Shown one piece after another: positions 11,176-18,461 of a DNA stretch of 64,000 nt. Made by a program: the position numbers and the translations under genes. How positions within the stretch are numbered: the stretch's first letter is position 1; each line of letters starts with the position of its first letter. Under the pieces are notes generated by a model, which saw only the letters and a list, made by a program, of their open reading frames with translations, was not told the origin of the DNA and made no database searches. The DNA comes from Streptosporangium becharense (lineage in GTDB: Bacteria; Actinomycetota; Actinomycetes; Streptosporangiales; Streptosporangiaceae), in the NCBI RefSeq assembly GCF_014204985.1, contig NZ_JACHMP010000001.1:4650001-4714000 (forward strand), given 5' to 3'.

Positions 11176-12975
11176 GTGTCCGTTACCGTGGACGTAACCG
11201 CCTCCAGTCCCACCACCCATGCCGAACTGGTCGAATGGGTCAAGGAGATCGCCGAGCTGACGCAGCCGGACCGGGTCGAATGGTGCGACGGTTCCGAAGC
11301 CGAGTGGACCCGCCTGACGAACCTGCTGGTCGACAAGGGCACCTTCAAGCGCCTGGCGAAGCGGCAGAACAGCTTCTACGCCGCCTCCGACCCCAGCGAC
11401 GTCGCCCGCGTCGAGGACAGGACCTACATCTGCTCCGAACGCGAGGAGGACGCCGGCCCGAACAACAACTGGATCGCCCCCGCCGAGATGCGCCGGACCT
11501 TCGGCGAGATCTTCCGGGGCTGCATGCGCGGCCGGACCATGTACGTCGTGCCGTTCTGCATGGGCCCGCTGGGCGGGGAGATCTCCCAGCTCGGCGTCGA
11601 GATCACCGACTCGCCGTACGTCGTCGTGTCCATGCGGATCATGACCCGCATGGGCGAGGACGCCCTGCGGCTCATCGAGCGGCGCGGCGACTACGTCAAG
11701 GCCGTGCACTCGGTCGGCGCTCCGCTGGAGCCCGGTCAGGCCGACGTGCCCTGGCCGTGCAGCACCACCAAGTACATCAGCCACTTCCCCGAGACCCGGG
11801 AGATCTGGTCGTACGGCTCCGGGTACGGCGGCAACGCGCTGCTCGGCAAGAAGTGCTACGCGCTGCGCATCGCCAGCACGATGGCCCGCGACGAGGGCTG
11901 GCTGGCCGAGCACATGCTCATCCTCAAACTCACCCCGCCTTCCGGGGAGACCCGTTACGTCGCCGCGGCCTTCCCGAGCGCCTGCGGCAAGACGAACCTG
12001 GCCATGCTCCAGCCGACCATTCCGGGCTGGAAGGTCGAGACGGTCGGTGACGACATCGCCTGGATGCGCTTCGGTGACGACGGCCGCCTGTACGCCATCA
12101 ACCCCGAGGCGGGCTTCTTCGGCGTCGCCCCGGGCACCGGCGAGTCCACCAACGCCAACGCGATCAGGACGCTCTGGGGCAACAGCATCTTCACCAACGT
12201 CGCGCTCACCGACGACGGCGACGTGTGGTGGGAGGGCCTCACCGACGAGCCCCCGGCGCACCTGACCGACTGGAAGGGCCGCGACTGGACCCCGGACAGC
12301 CCGGAGCCCGCCGCCCATCCCAACGCCCGCTTCACCGTCCCGGCCGCGCAGTGCCCGACGATCGCCCGCGAGTGGCAGGACCCCAAGGGGGTGCCGATCT
12401 CCGCGATCCTGTTCGGCGGGCGCCGCGCCAGCGCGGTGCCGCTGGTGACCGAGTCGCTGAGCTGGCAGCACGGTGTCTTCATCGGGGCCAACATCGCCTC
12501 GGAGAAGACCGCCGCCGCCGAGGGCAAGGTCGGAGAGCTGCGCCGCGACCCGTTCGCGATGCTGCCCTTCTGCGGCTACAACATGGGCGACTACTTCGCC
12601 CACTGGATCAGGATCGGGCAGCGTGAGGGTGCCCGGCTGCCGCGCGTCTACTACGTGAACTGGTTCCGCAAGAACGAGAAGGGCGAGTTCATCTGGCCCG
12701 GCTTCGGGGAGAACAGCCGGGTCCTGAAGTGGATCGTCGACCGCCTCAACGGCGAGGCGGACGCGGTGCGCACCCCGATCGGCCTGCTCCCCGCCGAGCT
12801 CGACACCGAGGGCCTCGACATCTCCGAGGAGGACCTGCGGACCCTGCTCAGCGTCGACCCGGAGATCTGGAAGCAGGAGGCGGCGCTGATCCCCGACTTC
12901 TTCCGGACCTTCGGCGACCACCTGCCCAAGGAACTCTGGGACGAGTACGAGGCGCTCGTCGCCCGTCTCGGCTGA
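11176..12975 (+). CDS. pckG: Phosphoenolpyruvate carboxykinase (GTP)
   Basis: Converts oxaloacetate plus GTP to PEP, CO2 and GDP at the entry of gluconeogenesis. At 599 residues it has typical length. The PEPCK kinase motif FPSACGKTN is at residues 266-274, and the R-loop and substrate-binding blocks ([15 protein letters not shown]) and NWFRK block are present. GTG 11176 has AAAGGAG 8 nt upstream. A 13-bp hairpin follows the stop. The 290-nt upstream region with four GntR-type sites suggests sugar- or PTS-linked repression. Confidence 0.98.
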
Positions 12976-13003
12976 GCCGCCTCCCCGAAGGGAGCCCCTT
13001 CCA

Positions 13004-13035
13004 CCGCGGCGCCGGTACCCGGACCGGCGCCGCGG
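13004..13035 (+). terminator. pckG terminator
   Basis: CCGCGGCGCCGGT and ACCGGCGCCGCGG form a perfect 13-bp stem around a 6-nt loop, 28 nt after the pckG stop. Confidence 0.7.
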
Positions 13036-13130
13036 ATCATGTTCTCCGCTCCGCGCGGGCGGACCCCGGGCGGGCCTGGACGTCGAGGTGCCCGTATCCG
13101 CGCGGACCGCAATCCGGATGACCGGGGGGT

Positions 13131-13198
13131 CGCTTCCCGGGTGTCCGGCGCGGGTCAGGGTGGCCGCTTCCCGCGTGACCGGCGCAGGTTAGGGTGGG
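13131..13198. repeat. 34-bp direct repeat, two copies
   Basis: 13131-13164 and 13165-13198 both begin CGCTTCCCG and end with AGGGTGG, with about six differences. The 409-nt gap 12976-13384 holds only the pckG terminator, this repeat, GC-rich low-complexity sequence and the promoter of the next gene. Confidence 0.75.
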
Positions 13199-13300
13199 CG
13201 GCCCGGGACGGATCCGGCGGGCCGGGCCTGACACCCACGGCGGGTCGGGCCCGACACACGACCCACCGGGCCTGACCCGGCGGGCCGGACCGGGAAGGTG

Positions 13301-13326
13301 GAAACTTCTCCCCGGCTCCGCGCGTC
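13301..13326 (+). promoter_or_regulatory. Candidate ECF-sigma promoter of MNIO cassette
   Basis: GAAAC (13301-13305) and CGTC (13323-13326) are separated by 17 nt, the spacing and sequence style of ECF-sigma promoters. It lies ~55 nt before the first TIGR04222 gene. The same GAAAC-N17-CGT arrangement recurs before the second TIGR04222 gene. Confidence 0.45.
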
Positions 13327-13384
13327 TACCCATTACCCGAGCCGTGCCCCCGCGGTTCGCTCCCCCCTTTCCCAGGAGGCGGAT

Positions 13385-14362
13385 ATGCAATTCGCCCTGT
13401 TCGCCCTCGCGGTGGTCCTCGGCGTGGTCGTCGGCCTCGCGAGCGGAGCCCTGACCCGAGAGCACGACCGGATCCGCTCGACTGTGACCGGTTACCGAGG
13501 CGGGCCGCTGACCCCGTACGAGCTGGCCTACCTGTCCGGCGGCCCGCGCCGCGTGGTCAACACCGCGATCGGCCTGCTGTCGAGGGGCGGGGCCGTCCGG
13601 GTGTCGCGGGGCGGTCACGTCAGCCTGGTCGCCGGGGCGCCGCCTTCCCCCGACCCGATCGAGTACGCGGTCATGGAGGCCCTCCACCTCCGCGGCGGCT
13701 CCACGGACCTGGGGGAGCTGCGCCGCGCGGTGGCCGAGGGGCAGGCGATGGAGGGCCTGCGATACCACCTGCTGGGCCTGGGGTTGATCATTCCCGACGG
13801 GGCGACGGGGCGGGCGAGGACGCTGCTGAACCGGCTCCTGGCCGTCTCGATCATCGTGCTGGCCGTGCCGCCGGTCATCGTCGTCTCCGGTGTCCCCTTC
13901 GGTTTCTTCGGGGGCTTCGCGCTGCTGGTGATCCTGATGACGGGGCTCTCCGGGCTCTCCACCTACTTCCGCCACCGGCGGCTCCTGCGCGGCGTGCTGA
14001 GCAAGACCGGGAACGAGGTGCTCGGCTCCGCCCGCCGGACCCACCTGCGGGGCGCCCGCTCCCTCACCCCTGACCCGGTCCTCGCCGTGGGCATCCCCGT
14101 CGCCCTGTACGGGCTGGGAGAGCTCGGCGACCCCTATCTGCAGGAGGAGTTGGAACGTGACAGTGGGGGCGGCTCGGCCGGATGCGCCGCGGGCGCCTGC
14201 GGGGGCGGGAGCGACTCCTCCTTCGGCGGGGGCGGAGACTTCGGGTCCGGCGGGTGGGGCGACTCCGGCGGCGGCTCGGGAGACTCGGGCGGCGGCTCGG
14301 GTGACTCCGGCGGTGGTTCGAGCTGCGGCGGCGGGTGCGGTGGCGGGTGCGGCGGTGGCTGA
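13385..14362 (+). CDS. TIGR04222-type membrane protein with Gly/Cys-rich tail (A)
   Basis: 325 residues. An N-terminal transmembrane helix (2-22) precedes a cytoplasmic domain with the family block [21 protein letters not shown]. Two hydrophobic segments follow (~153-195), then a C-terminal ~65-residue tail made almost only of Gly, Ser, Asp and Cys. Cysteines in the tail are at 267, 272, 314, 318 and 322; the end reads [17 protein letters not shown] 13385 follows AGGAGG at 13374-13379. The tail looks like a modification substrate for the DUF692 enzyme encoded immediately downstream with an 8-nt overlap (inference). The membrane anchor is unusual for a peptide precursor. Confidence 0.9.
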
Positions 14363-15167
14363 GCCCCGGGCACTGGGTGTGGGCATCGGCTGGCGACCGG
14401 AGATCGACCTGAGCGTGGAACGGCTGCCCGGAGTCGACTTCGTGGAGGTCATCGCGGAGAACGTGCGACCCGACCGGCTTCCCGAGTCGCTGCGCGTGCT
14501 GCGCGGACGCGGGGTGCCGGTGATCCCGCACGGCGTGGGACTGGGCATCGGAGGCGCCGAACCCCCCGACCCCGGGCGGCTGGCGCACCTGGCGGCCTGC
14601 GCGCGGGCCCTGGACGCCCCCCTGGTCAGCGAACACCTCGCCTTCGTCCGGGCGGGCGGCCTGGAGGCGGGTCATCTGCTGCCGATCCCCCGCACCGGGG
14701 CCGCGCTCTCCGTCGTCGTCGAGAACGTCCGGCGGGCACAGGACGCGCTGCCCGTCCCGCTGGCGCTGGAGAACGTGGCGGCCCTGTTCGGCTGGCCGGA
14801 GGACGAGATGACCGAGGCGCAGTTCCTCGGCGAACTGGTCGAGGCGACCGGCGTGGGGCTCCTGGTGGATGTGGCCAACCTCTACACCAACCAGGTCAAC
14901 CTGGGCCTGTCGGCCACCGAGGCGCTCGACGACCTGCCGTTGTCCGCGCTGGCCTACGTCCACGTCGCCGGCGGTCACTCACGTGACGGCCTGTGGCACG
15001 ACACCCACACCGCTCACGTTCCCGACGACATCCTGGATGTCCTGTCGGAGCTGTGCGCCAGGGTCGACCCGCCCGGCGTCCTCCTCGAATGGGACGACGA
15101 CTACCCCAGCGACGACGCCCTCGCCGCCGAGCTCGGCCGGATCCGCGGCGCGATGGCCCGTGTCTGA
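14355..15167 (+). CDS. DUF692 / MNIO-family enzyme (MbnB-like)
   Basis: 270-residue TIM-barrel protein of the multinuclear non-heme iron-dependent oxidase family. Known members (MbnB, TglH, ChrI and bufferin enzymes) oxidise cysteines in peptide substrates. Candidate iron ligands typical of the family are visible: H59 ([10 protein letters not shown]), H94 (SEHLAF), E139-N140, D172 and N175 (DVANLYTN), H203 (YVHVAGGH), D216/H218 (DTHTAH) and E245 (LLEWDDD). GTG 14355 overlaps the stop of the upstream gene by 8 nt; starting further upstream would add Gly-rich codons without family similarity. The next gene starts at GTG 15160 inside its own stop, implying translational coupling. Confidence 0.93.
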
Positions 15168-15567
15168 GGAACGGCCCGTTTCCGGCCCCCTCTCCGGGGA
15201 CGCCGCCCGTGCGGCCCTGGCCGACGCCCAGGCCGCACTGCTGGCCTCCCTGGTGGCGGGCCGGGAGGCGCCGGCCGGCTTCGACCGGGACCGGCTGCGG
15301 GTCCAGGAGCGCAGCCTGATCGCCAAGCGCCGCCGGTCGGTGGCCAGGCACCGGCCCGACCTGGTGGTGGTGCTCGGCGGTGACTTCGCCCGGGAGTTCG
15401 CCGGCTACGCGCGGGGCCGGCCCAGGCCGCCCGGCGGCACCCACGCCGACGTCCGGGACTTCGCCGACTGGCTCCGTGCCGCGGGCCGCCTGCCGGAGGA
15501 GCCACCGGCCGGTCCCGAGCCCGGTCCCGGGTCCCCCTGGTGGAGGCGGTTCCTCCGGCGCCGCTGA
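15160..15567 (+). CDS. Small MNIO partner protein, 135 aa
   Basis: Starts at GTG 15160 in an 8-nt overlap (GTGTCTGA) with the DUF692 gene, so it is translationally coupled. The first half is helical ([19 protein letters not shown]), followed by [36 protein letters not shown] and a Pro-rich basic end. The pattern 'RR..S....P.L...LG..F...FA.YA' resembles the helical half of the DUF2063/MbnC-type partner proteins that deliver substrate to MNIOs, but similarity is weak and the assignment rests mainly on position. Its stop overlaps the promoter of the next gene. Confidence 0.82.
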
Positions 15568-15591
15568 AACCTTCGACCTTTCCCGTCCGTT
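15566..15591 (+). promoter_or_regulatory. Candidate ECF-sigma promoter of second TIGR04222 gene
   Basis: GAAAC (15566-15570, overlapping the TGA stop of the partner gene), 17 nt, then CGTT (15588-15591). Same architecture as the element at 13301-13326. Confidence 0.4.
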
Positions 15592-15636
15592 CAGGGGGTA
15601 GTGGACCCCGCGCGGGGTTCTCTCCCGGAGGCCGCT

Positions 15637-16410
15637 GTGGACATCGTCCAGATCCTCATCCCGATCGTCGCGCTCGTGGCGGTGACCGTCCTGTTCGCCC
15701 TTCGCCTGGCTCGGCACTCCACCCGCGCCTACGACGGGCCCGAGTTGACGCCGTACGACCTCGCCATGCTCGCGGGCGGGCCGCCCCGGGTGGCCGACAC
15801 CGCGATGGCCGCGCTGACCGAGGGAAAGGCGGCCAGGGCACGGCGCGACGGGTGGCTGACCCGGGTGCGCTCCGAACCCACCGGGTCGCTCCACCCGGTG
15901 GCGCAGGAGACGCTGGCCCTGATCGGGGCACGGTCCGGCGGCATGCCGGTCTGGGAACTGCGGAGGGAGGCCGCCGGCACGCCCGCGATGGCCGCGCTGG
16001 CCGCGCGGTTGCGGGACCTGGGGTTGATCGACCCTCCGGGCTCGGGCCGGGCCGACCCCACCCACCCCAACCGGACCGGGCAGGCCGCGCTGGCGCACTA
16101 CCGTCTGCGCCACCGGGAGGAGAAGTCGTTGCCGGCCCGCCCCCGCGACCACGTCGCCGTCGACGCGCTGAACCTCTTCGGGATCGCTCTGTACGGGCTG
16201 CACCAGCTGGGAGACGAGGAACTGCGGGCGGTGCTGTGCGCGGAGGAGCCACGGCCGGCCGGGGCCCGGCCGGCCGCGCGGCTCCGCCGGCGTGGCTCCC
16301 GCCGCTCCAGGTCCTCCTCGGCGGCCTCCGGCTCCTCCTCGGGGTGCGGCTCCTCGGGGAGCGACGGCGGGCCGGGCGGCTGCGGTGGTGGTTGCGGCGG
16401 CGGAAGCTGA
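15637..16410 (+). CDS. TIGR04222-type membrane protein with Gly/Cys-rich tail (B)
   Basis: 257 residues, a paralogue of the protein at 13385. It has an N-terminal helix (VDIVQILIPIVALVAVTVLF) and the same block LTPYDLAMLAGGPPRVADTAM, but lacks the second pair of hydrophobic segments. It ends in a Ser/Arg then Gly/Cys tail with cysteines at 237, 249 and 253 ([11 protein letters not shown]). GTG 15637 is chosen because GGAGG precedes it by 5 nt and the predicted N-terminus then matches that of the paralogue. A second candidate substrate of the DUF692 enzyme. Confidence 0.9.
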   Translation: MDIVQILIPIVALVAVTVLFALRLARHSTRAYDGPELTPYDLAMLAGGPPRVADTAMAALTEGKAARARRDGWLTRVRSEPTGSLHPVAQETLALIGARSGGMPVWELRREAAGTPAMAALAARLRDLGLIDPPGSGRADPTHPNRTGQAALAHYRLRHREEKSLPARPRDHVAVDALNLFGIALYGLHQLGDEELRAVLCAEEPRPAGARPAARLRRRGSRRSRSSSAASGSSSGCGSSGSDGGPGGCGGGCGGGS

Positions 16411-16415
16411 GTTCT

Positions 16416-16431
16416 CCGGACCTCTGTCCGG
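16416..16431 (+). terminator. Small hairpin after MNIO cassette
   Basis: CCGGAC-CTCT-GTCCGG, a 6-bp stem 5 nt after the stop, followed by GC-rich sequence. Confidence 0.4.
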
Positions 16432-16556
16432 CGGGGGAAACCCGGCTTCCCGGGCCACCGATCGACGGCGGAGACCGTGTTCCCCGGCCCTGTCCGGCGG
16501 GAGGCCGCCGGGTTAGGTTGGGCGGGTATCTGATCAAGTCCTGCATCGGAGCGGCC

Positions 16557-17525
16557 ATGGTGAAGATCGTCGATCATGGAACGTGGATTCCGCGCGAGGA
16601 GGACGAGGGGTGCCACCCCGCGGGCGCCGAACCGCTGTGGAACGAGTCCGTCTACCTCGACTTCACGGCCGACGACGGCTCGGTCGCCGGCTACGTTCGC
16701 CTGGGCCTGTATCCCAACTGGAACCGCGCCTGGTACTGGGCGTGCCTGGTCGGCCGGGACCGGCCCACGGTGCTGCTGGCCGACGACCACGCCCCGCTGC
16801 CCGGACCGGATCTCACCGTGCGGGGCGAGGGTCACCGGGCCGCCTACCGGGCCACCCACGAGGTCACCGTGCCCATGCGGTCGTTCCGGCTCACCCTGGA
16901 CGCCGCGGCGGTGCCCGTCGTGGACGACCCGGCGCGGGCGTACGACGACCCGGGCGGGGCGGAGACGACCTTGCTGGGGTTCGACCTGGAGTGGACGACC
17001 GTGGGCGGGGTGTATCCGTACGGTTTCCTGCCGCGCTACGAGATCCCCTGCGAGGTCGCCGGGACGATCAGGGCGGGCGGCGAGGAGATCGCCTTCTCCG
17101 GGCACGGTGAGCGTGACCACAGCTGGGGTGAACGCGACTGGTGGCAGACCTCGTGGTTGTGGAGCTCGGGGCGGCTCGACGACGGGACGTTCTTCCACGG
17201 TATGCGGGCCAACGCCGGGGTCGAGCTGCCCTGGCCGTGCTTCACGGTGCCCCCGGGCGGGGAGGTCGGCCACCGCGCGGGGTTCACCGCGTCGAGCGTG
17301 TTCGGCGCGGACGGGCTGCCCGCCGGGTCGCGCCTGCTGGTGCCGGGGCTCGCGATGTCCGCCGTCCCGGTGGCCTTCGCCCCGGTCGCCATGACGTCGC
17401 CGGACGGGCGGACCGCCCGCTTCCCGCGGGCGTTGTGCCGCTTCGAGACCGAGGACGGGCGTTCGGGACACGGCTGGACCGAGTGGCACCAGCCGCCCGG
17501 GTGGCGCGGGCACGCATGGGGCTGA
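16557..17525 (+). CDS. CrtC/hydroxyneurosporene-synthase-like hypothetical (DUF7064/7065 type)
   Basis: 322 residues, beta-rich, with repeated Trp and the motif GHGERDHSWGERDWW. This motif is characteristic of a lipocalin-like family related to CrtC and AttH proteins, often near steroid, terpene or lipid metabolism genes. No signal peptide is visible. ATG 16557 has CGGAG 5 nt upstream. Its reaction is unknown. It lies upstream of a cis-prenyltransferase, which may be coincidental (168-nt gap with a separate GATAAT -10 at 17639). Confidence 0.8.
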   Translation: MVKIVDHGTWIPREEDEGCHPAGAEPLWNESVYLDFTADDGSVAGYVRLGLYPNWNRAWYWACLVGRDRPTVLLADDHAPLPGPDLTVRGEGHRAAYRATHEVTVPMRSFRLTLDAAAVPVVDDPARAYDDPGGAETTLLGFDLEWTTVGGVYPYGFLPRYEIPCEVAGTIRAGGEEIAFSGHGERDHSWGERDWWQTSWLWSSGRLDDGTFFHGMRANAGVELPWPCFTVPPGGEVGHRAGFTASSVFGADGLPAGSRLLVPGLAMSAVPVAFAPVAMTSPDGRTARFPRALCRFETEDGRSGHGWTEWHQPPGWRGHAWG

Positions 17526-17693
17526 GCTGGGTGTCCTCACCGTGCTCGCCTCCCGGAGGCCGGCGGACGCCCCGGGCGGCGGGGGAGAGGCACACCCTGC
17601 GAGCCCCGAAGACGGGGCGGACAGGTCCGTGAGGCGGCGATAATTGCCTGTCAGCGCCTCAAATAGGGGCGGGCGCTGAGGGGAGGGACTCCT

Positions 17694-18461
17694 ATGGGCC
17701 TGCGCGATCTCGTCTATCGGCTGTACGAACGCCGGCTGGAGGCGAAGCTGTCCCGTCAGAAGGAGATGGCTCCCCGGCACGTCGGCGTCATCGTCGACGG
17801 CAACCGGCGCTGGGCACGTTCGATGGGCATCTCCGACGTGAGCCGCGGTCACCGCAAGGGTGCCGACAAGATCTCCGAGCTGCTCGGCTGGTGCCGCGAG
17901 GCGGGCGTCGAGGTCGTCACCGTGTGGCTGCTGTCCAGCGACAACATCAACCGGTCCAAGGACGAGCTGGAGCCGTTGATGAAGATCATCGAGGACGTGG
18001 TCCAGGAGCTCGTCGAGGACGGCTGGCACATCAAGCCCATGGGTGCGCTTGATCTTTTGCCGGATCACACGGCTCGTGTCCTGAAAGATGCAAAAGAAGC
18101 GACATCGCATCGTCCGGGATTGATTGTGAACGTTGCCGTTGGGTATGGAGGAAGGCGTGAGATCGCTGATGCGGTGCGCTCCCTTCTCCAGGAGCACGCC
18201 AGCAAGGGCGCGACGATCGAGGAACTCGTCGAGGTCCTCGATGTGGAGCACATCGCGGAGCATCTCTACACGCGCGGCCAGCCCGACCCGGACCTGGTCA
18301 TCCGGACCTCGGGAGAGCAGCGGCTCTCCGGCTTCCTGCTCTGGCAGAGCGCCCACTCCGAGTTCTACTTCTGCGAGGCCTACTGGCCTGACTTCCGCAG
18401 GGTCGACTTCTTGCGGGCACTCCGCTCGTATGCCGCGCGGCACCGCCGGTACGGCTCCTGA
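17694..18461 (+). CDS. uppS: Short-chain cis-prenyltransferase (isoprenyl transferase)
   Basis: 255-residue cis-prenyltransferase adding isopentenyl diphosphate units in Z configuration for polyprenyl carrier synthesis. Motifs: VGVIVDGNRRWA (catalytic Asp in the DGN motif, Mg2+ and diphosphate), LSSDN block, RTSGEQRLSGFLLWQSAHSEFYF. Rv1086-like synteny suggests Z,E-farnesyl diphosphate synthase rather than the full-length undecaprenyl enzyme (inference). GGGGAGGGA precedes ATG 17694. Codons between about 18046 and 18180 are much AT-richer than the rest of the gene (CTT, GAT, AAA, GCA, GTT), though the protein sequence stays family-typical. Confidence 0.95.
   Translation: MGLRDLVYRLYERRLEAKLSRQKEMAPRHVGVIVDGNRRWARSMGISDVSRGHRKGADKISELLGWCREAGVEVVTVWLLSSDNINRSKDELEPLMKIIEDVVQELVEDGWHIKPMGALDLLPDHTARVLKDAKEATSHRPGLIVNVAVGYGGRREIADAVRSLLQEHASKGATIEELVEVLDVEHIAEHLYTRGQPDPDLVIRTSGEQRLSGFLLWQSAHSEFYFCEAYWPDFRRVDFLRALRSYAARHRRYGS

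Follow-up and report, generated by a model that had tools for sequence, protein, structure and literature searches.

The locus described here raises the question of what an MNIO (DUF692) enzyme and its short partner protein act upon when they are encoded between two membrane proteins with cysteine-containing Gly/Ser tails. It lies in a 64,000-nucleotide window of Streptosporangium becharense (contig NZ_JACHMP010000001.1, positions 4,650,001 to 4,714,000), the window being the whole stretch of DNA analysed, and consists of four genes placed head to tail on the + strand at window positions 13385–16410, namely a TIGR04222 membrane protein (gene A), the MNIO, the partner, and a second, shorter TIGR04222 protein (gene B). 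We propose that the MNIO and its probably DUF2063-like partner would oxidise cysteines, mostly in Cys-Gly dyads, in the disordered tails at the C-termini of the TIGR04222 proteins, with A modified first and B where its cysteines persist; that the cytoplasmic enzyme would act on a cytoplasmic, membrane-fixed tail without export; and that the product would be a row of 5-thiooxazole-type (or oxazolone/thioamide-type) soft-metal ligands, the modified tail possibly serving to buffer or sense copper or soft metals. To this proposal as a whole we give a probability of about one half. It starts from the gene order, the clade-specific pairing of TIGR04222 with the MNIO, the association of tail cysteines with this enzyme, its conserved metal-site residues and the natural fusion of MNIO and partner, and from these we infer the occurrence of the modification, its chemistry, the metal binding and the role.

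A sequence-only reading of the window had described a cassette of TIGR04222-A, DUF692, partner and TIGR04222-B genes with the first three coupled by 8-nt overlaps, and this cassette is real, with the families confirmed by profile and overlaps of 8 nt at both the A/MNIO and the MNIO/partner junctions, while the start given by that reading, 13301, precedes the likely start of A by 84 nt. Gene A (13385–14362, 325 aa) begins with an ATG preceded by the Shine-Dalgarno sequence AGGAGG at 13374–13379, scores 130.9 bits with the NCBIfam profile TIGR04222 (cut-off 43 bits), and has an AlphaFold2 model with a mean pLDDT of 83, in which the Gly/Ser tail of residues 263–325 (14171–14359) falls below 50. 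All five cysteines of A are confined to this tail, the proposed substrate. Gene B (15637–16410, GTG start, 257 aa) begins 69 nt past the end of the partner gene with its own ribosome site (GGAGG, 15627–15631), and its product, also above the cut-off with 84.4 bits over profile positions 6–134 of 229, has one membrane helix by hydropathy and no hairpin, as well as a tail, Arg/Ser-rich and then Gly/Ser/Cys (16270–16407), holding three of its four cysteines. Neither A nor B has a Lys adjacent to any Cys. In a genome-wide profile search of the 7.82-Mb genome, A and B were the sole TIGR04222 genes and no further MNIO turned up; the partner, too, was found in a single copy.

The MNIO gene (14355–15167, GTG start, 270 aa) encodes a protein scoring 269.1 bits against a cut-off of 25 for PF05114, and an alignment of 19 MNIO relatives shows H59, H94, E139, D172, N175, H203, D216, H218 and E245 to be invariant, all nine being in register with 3BWW/TglH when 3BWW, TglH and MbnB are aligned with the window's enzyme. 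N175, D216 and H218 align, through PDB 3BWW, with HvfB N175, D242 and H244, residues whose substitution abolishes activity (PMC13419390), and some of the other six are presumably metal ligands. The enzyme stays below every NCBIfam equivalog cut-off, with 193 bits against 310 for BufB, 147 against 360 for HvfB, 119 against 400 for ApyH, 63 against 600 for ChrH, and 43 (42.9) against 325 for MbnB, and the closest named MNIO among the matches listed is that of S. minutum, at 89% identity. It keeps the metal-site residues, and its predicted activity is the iron-dependent oxidation of peptide cysteine.

The pairing of this enzyme with Cys tails was followed by running the TIGR04222 and MNIO profiles on one set of 150 genomes from the order, which gave TIGR04222 matches in 107 and MNIO matches in 59. 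TIGR04222 matches of at least 43 bits were kept (136 listed places, incomplete at the weak end); four of these, at contig ends or with broken frames, were dropped, leaving 132 proteins read whole, and a tail was counted as a Cys tail when the last 45 residues contained two or more Cys in a Gly/Ser context. Sixty-six of the 136 places are no more than 6 kb away from an MNIO, every one on its strand, and Cys tails were present in 64 of 65 such linked proteins, against 6 of 20 with an MNIO elsewhere in the genome and none of 47 from genomes lacking an MNIO; all 54 genomes with a Cys-tailed TIGR04222 protein contain an MNIO. Seen from the enzyme, the clade sharing at least 50% identity with that of the window (other types are below 40%) comprises 56 rows, or 55 genes, the MNIO of genome G055 being in two frames and counted twice, and 54 of the 56 rows have a Cys-tailed TIGR04222 protein in the locus. 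Of the remaining two, one has a contig end 53 bases away and the other has its Cys-tailed pair on a separate contig of the same genome. None of the ten MNIO rows of other types has a listed TIGR04222 gene within 6 kb, and at least one TIGR04222 gene stands upstream of the MNIO in 53 of the 54 linked loci. Within the order, Cys tails are thus tightly associated with this MNIO clade. This association backs the suggestion of the sequence-only reading that the tails are the substrate, an idea which is not new, having been already proposed (PMC12452194). That both tails would serve holds less evenly, B seeming less essential than A: the lone linked protein without a Cys tail is the B counterpart of genome G126, in which A keeps its cysteines. 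Two side observations from this survey are the locus of G055, where the split MNIO has two Cys-tailed TIGR04222 genes alongside (L165), and the six Cys-tailed proteins far from the MNIO of their genome (L122, L124, L125, L129 and L130), which are possible substrates in trans.

Several points weigh against the proposal, the first being shared ancestry. On a tree of the conserved parts of the 132 TIGR04222 proteins, linkage changes six times and the Cys tail five times, and of the three supported independent pairs that remain, on average 1.1 show Cys together with linkage and 0 show the opposite. Because the independent changes are too few, the association cannot be tested free of shared ancestry, and the Fisher value of 5e-31 for the order survey, which ignores kinship, overstates the case. 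In a phylum sample of 246 genomes including the source genome, with TIGR04222 counted above its cut-off and clade-type MNIOs taken as those of 250–270 bits, nine genomes have both proteins, one has TIGR04222 only and two have the MNIO only, a co-occurrence that speaks for the pairing but whose Fisher value of 7e-14 is not free of shared ancestry either. The same paucity of independent changes, and the fact that the codons GGC, AGC and TGC are one step apart, would fit an origin of the Cys tails in GC-rich repeats whose Gly/Ser codons drifted neutrally, the tails being carried along in one clade. We regard such drift as very improbable. Twenty tails from MNIO-less genomes of the same order are equally Gly-rich (at least 40%), and none is a Cys tail, 16 of them ending in Asp or Glu; DNA coding for Cys-Gly3-Cys-Gly2 occurs five times in the source genome, three times in the A and B tails and twice in open frames (32 and 13 codons) that show no coding bias, so that A and B alone carry it in coding frame, with no occurrence of the pattern read backwards as a control; and the Cys-tailed proteins have a median of five Cys in the last 80 residues (114 distinct proteins, chosen for at least two Cys).

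The second point comes from Streptomyces. A scan for named relatives in 84,980 species genomes confirmed at least 549 places, and in the best 80, which were kept, 63 loci have a Cys-tailed TIGR04222 gene on the same strand. Seventy of the 80 are uncut by contig ends, 58 with a Cys-tailed TIGR04222 protein and 12 without one by the rule used; of these exceptions, one is Nonomuraea guangzhouensis (L218), with a single tail Cys under this rule, and the other 11 are Streptomyces, six with only Cys-less TIGR04222 proteins beside the MNIO and five with none. These 11 genomes were searched whole and no Cys-tailed TIGR04222 protein was found anywhere in them: four have no TIGR04222 match, one has a broken match below the cut-off, and six have TIGR04222 proteins whose tails do not count as Cys tails by the rule used, the only other Cys/Gly/Ser-rich open frames in the 11 loci being ones judged unconvincing by eye. 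Five Streptomyces-like loci of the phylum sample (L293, L294, L295, L300 and L301) also lack a convincing Cys-tailed frame; a frame that was flagged in L301 looked spurious on inspection by eye. Since these exception Streptomyces keep the MNIO while no Cys-tailed TIGR04222 protein was found genome-wide, their enzyme has another substrate or is a relic, and they weaken the story of one substrate. The sequence-only reading had counted widespread loci of this clade without a Cys-tailed protein as evidence against itself, and such loci do exist in part, as the 12 of 70 and the 11 whole genomes show. Furthermore, no metal gene is among the few named members of the 22 neighbour clusters listed for the 80 best loci (named by Pfam or by eye), and no experiment on the modification of TIGR04222 tails was found in the open-access literature searched.

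These Streptomyces also bear on a different explanation of the pairing, in which the tail cysteines stay unoxidised and, as plain thiolates, bind iron or another metal that they deliver to, or buffer for, an MNIO acting elsewhere. Such thiolates would account for the Cys–MNIO pairing too, and the Streptomyces keeping MNIO and partner, with no Cys-tailed TIGR04222 protein found, would show another use of the enzyme or a relic; the genome-wide check lowered our confidence in the oxidised tail from 0.55 to 0.5 and raised that in the thiolates slightly. Even so, we hold the thiolates to be unlikely, given that the characterised MNIOs, as far as the sources cited describe them, use peptide substrates, often at Cys (PMC12452194, PMC13419390, PMC13097082), and that TIGR04222 precedes the MNIO in 53 of the 54 loci from the order survey, as a precursor gene precedes that of its enzyme.

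In Streptomyces and Kitasatospora loci other than these exceptions, the genes run MNIO, partner, TIGR04222 with up to eight tail Cys, and Cys-less TIGR04222. As side observations, a DUF4142 protein stands between the fused MNIO-partner and a Cys-less TIGR04222 protein in four Streptomyces loci (L260, L263, L268 and L271), and two plasmid records of Tsukamurella tyrosinosolvens, NZ_LR134462.1 and NZ_LR134459.1, carry MNIOs at 55% and 51% identity.

Returning to the proposed oxidation of the tail, the next question is on which side of the membrane the tail lies. Protein A has an N-terminal helix (residues 2–32, 13388–13480) that by its AlphaFold2 model, hydropathy and charge bias resembles a membrane anchor, probably with N outside and C inside, followed by a domain (residues 37–140, 13493–13804) and a membrane-helix hairpin (residues 140–202, 13802–13990, with helices 140–168 and 174–202). 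The same one-plus-two pattern of membrane helices was called in 53 of 61 aligned TIGR04222 proteins (A of the window and 60 of 82 others), where the density of Arg and Lys, with equal helix flanks of 8 residues, is 0.295 on the domain and tail side and 0.050 on the other side. With these flanks a cytoplasmic tail is favoured in 49 of the 53, the reverse in two, with two ties; flanks of 5 residues give 47 for, 4 against and 2 ties, and flanks of 15 residues give 48, 5 and 0. A cytoplasmic tail is favoured as well by all 33 linked proteins of the order survey with the one-plus-two pattern and fits the three with a single helix (3/3), while 12 of the 65 linked proteins show other helix patterns. 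Moreover, some paralogues of about 200 residues carry this domain but no membrane helix, six of 132 at a hydropathy threshold of 1.6 (L142, L143, L151, L155, L158 and L160) and three at 1.5. The AlphaFold2 models give no membrane side. From the charge bias, the helix-less paralogues and the distant kinship with DUF2207 proteins described below, the tail is most likely on the cytoplasmic face, as opposed to the periplasm as published, and a cytoplasmic MNIO would then reach it without export.

If instead the tail lies outside, it would be modified before or during export and would work as an extracytoplasmic bufferin. On the basis of predicted topology, Antoine et al. (2025) assign the tail to the periplasm (PMC12452194), and a further point against our proposal leads the same way, for an extra hydrophobic segment, ambiguous in nature, is present in 17 of the 65 linked proteins and could place the tail outside, eight of the 61 aligned proteins reaching a 19-residue hydropathy of 1.6 in it. 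We consider an outside tail improbable in view of the equal-flank charge bias (49 of 53, and 33 of 33 linked), of the extra segment of A being only a 12-residue helix (231–242 in the AlphaFold2 model) with a hydropathy of 1.28, of the single membrane helix of B, of the six helix-less paralogues, and of the Arg-containing stretch that follows the helix in seven of eight DUF2207 kin.

This kinship appeared in the phylum sample, in which nine fetched matches below the TIGR04222 cut-off (L302–L310) were all DUF2207 proteins (PF20990). Comparison of the profile with eight DUF2207 proteins gave an hhalign probability of 96% and an E of 3e-9 (one comparison) over 81 columns, and seven of the eight run from a membrane helix through an Arg-containing stretch to the domain, a hairpin and a Gly-rich tail. 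By profile comparison, then, TIGR04222 and DUF2207 look like distant kin, although A itself matched no Pfam family at E up to 1, DUF2207_C (PF20990) included; we did not find the two named together in the open-access literature searched. DUF2207 membrane proteins share with A and its relatives the winged-helix-like domain, two membrane helices and a Gly-rich tail in the same order, and differ in a large extra N-terminal domain and in their tails, those fetched being Cys-less in the last stretch and many ending in GGGSW. As to the domain itself, 44 members gave weak matches (E up to 1) to 23 families in all, helix-turn-helix types such as HTH_Crp_2 (10), HTH_20 (8, best E 1.8e-6), TrmB (7), MarR_2 (2) and GntR (2) being among them, and together with the AlphaFold2 secondary structure these make a winged-helix pair the most likely identity. 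The reading is left to profile matches and secondary structure because a Foldseek search of the A model against the PDB gave no significant match (50 of 86 matches listed). An RRE identity of the domain found no support, hhalign giving 0.2% against four proteins of DUF2063-RRE length. A bolder extension, which we find doubtful, would make TIGR04222 a membrane-tethered winged-helix regulator whose cytoplasmic tail, converted after translation by a dedicated MNIO into serial thiooxazole-type ligands, is a membrane-fixed metal sensor, and whose domain may replace the missing RRE of the partner in recruiting the enzyme.

The partner gene (15160–15567, GTG start, 135 aa), placed directly after the MNIO, encodes a protein with an AlphaFold2 model of helices only (pLDDT 88), without a full RRE domain, without the DUF2063 Pfam signature and with no significant match to any Pfam or NCBIfam family. 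Two partner alignments comprised 22 of 54 partners and the window's partner with 53 of 75. In profile comparison, hhalign gave 51% and an E of 1.6e-4, over 47 columns, against four proteins beside bufferin-type MNIOs, which were taken for DUF2063 from sequence and gene place; control comparisons gave 0.3% and 0.2%. The partner is thus probably DUF2063-like, of the PME-type 2 kind. Profile searches against PDB sequences returned nothing relevant, and Foldseek of the model against the PDB nothing significant, the top query TM-score among 16 matches being 0.38 for MbnC, with a non-significant E of 8.2. The strongest sign that MNIO and partner work as one unit is their natural fusion, given that the two form one open frame in 27 of the 80 best named loci (for example L239, L241, L259, L263, L269, L271 and L274, and 20 others), with linkers of 15 to 277 residues, the partner profile being matched only in part in four of the 27, from Plantactinospora, Mycolicibacterium (twice) and Mycobacterium. 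Locus L233 pairs such a fusion with a Cys-tailed protein of its own, and L263 belongs to a Streptomyces that keeps the fusion with no Cys-tailed protein found. In 41 of 53 cases of the order survey, the frame that follows overlaps the end of the MNIO, starting 4 or 8 nt ahead of its stop. An engineered HvfB-HvfC fusion is reported to yield more product than either HvfB by itself or the two proteins co-expressed, and the HvfC partner to be required for the mixed-valent diiron state (PMC13419390).

The expected chemistry is taken from the composition of the tails. In the 114 Cys-tailed proteins, Gly directly follows Cys in 524 of 631 cases, the Cys–Cys spacing is 4–7 in 326 of 517, and 69 of the proteins have neither Lys nor Arg in their last 55 residues. 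FonBC, a thiooxazole-forming MNIO pair, is described as preferring a Cys-Gly dyad, and in an NVCGG variant it modified a single Cys; for fontiphorin a loss of 4 H per repeat is reported (PMC13097082). Because the Cys-Gly tails fit this preference, thiooxazole-like groups and soft-metal binding are, by analogy, our best guess. Bufferins and captophorins (BufB, HvfB, FonB) likewise have an MNIO and a DUF2063-type partner acting on Cys, and Cys-Gly dyads; their precursors, however, mostly have Sec signal peptides and Lys-Cys/Cys-Lys or DUF2282 motifs and their partner is DUF2063-RRE, whereas here we have a membrane protein, no DUF2282 match, tails poor in Lys and Arg, and a short RRE-less partner. 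Methanobactin MbnB/MbnC shares the enzyme fold, the metal site and a partner without the DUF2063 signature, but has a small peptide precursor, and the window's MNIO misses the MbnB equivalog cut-off.

The closest published counterpart is that of Antoine et al. (2025; PMC12452194), whose text describes TIGR04222 proteins as frequent, not constant, MNIO companions, mostly of Actinomycetota, with C-terminal Ser/Gly tails with interspersed Cys and with PME-type 2 partners, and proposes, in silico only, a subset of them as MNIO substrates; more than a quarter of TIGR04222 proteins are given there as lacking C-proximal Cys, and a third of TIGR04222 genomes as lacking an MNIO. Our locus shares with their TIGR04222–MNIO–PME-type 2 clusters the gene set, the Ser/Gly/Cys tails, the RRE-less partner and the TIGR04222 gene before or after the MNIO, and differs in that they place the tail in the periplasm. 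The central idea is therefore already published, without experiment. New here are the tight association of Cys tails with the MNIO clade, the revised topology, the DUF2207 kinship, the natural enzyme–partner fusions and the Streptomyces exceptions; the main text of PMC12452194 has no count of Cys tails against MNIO, mentions no MNIO–partner fusion at 12 of the 14 places with fusion words, and lacks DUF2207 as a word.

Around the cassette, the upstream neighbour is a phosphoenolpyruvate carboxykinase gene and the downstream ones encode a DUF7064/DUF7065 protein and undecaprenyl diphosphate synthase; the carboxykinase and the synthase recur among the neighbour clusters of the best loci, apparently through shared gene order. 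In the gap that separates A from the carboxykinase gene are two tandem 34-nt repeats, 82% alike (13124–13191), and more GC-rich repeats (13203–13293), and a perfect 13-nt inverted repeat stands at 13004–13035; these are possible regulatory or terminator elements, and an Rfam scan of 12900–17700 found no RNA.

If the proposal is true, MNIO chemistry would reach beyond peptides to a segment that stays part of a membrane protein, on the intracellular side, with a range covering Streptosporangiaceae, Streptomyces, Kitasatospora, mycobacteria and others. The natural MNIO–partner fusions would offer a single-chain enzyme for reconstitution, like the engineered HvfBC fusion (PMC13419390). Finally, a cytoplasmic tail would change what is to be looked for, namely the whole protein from membranes and not a secreted peptide.

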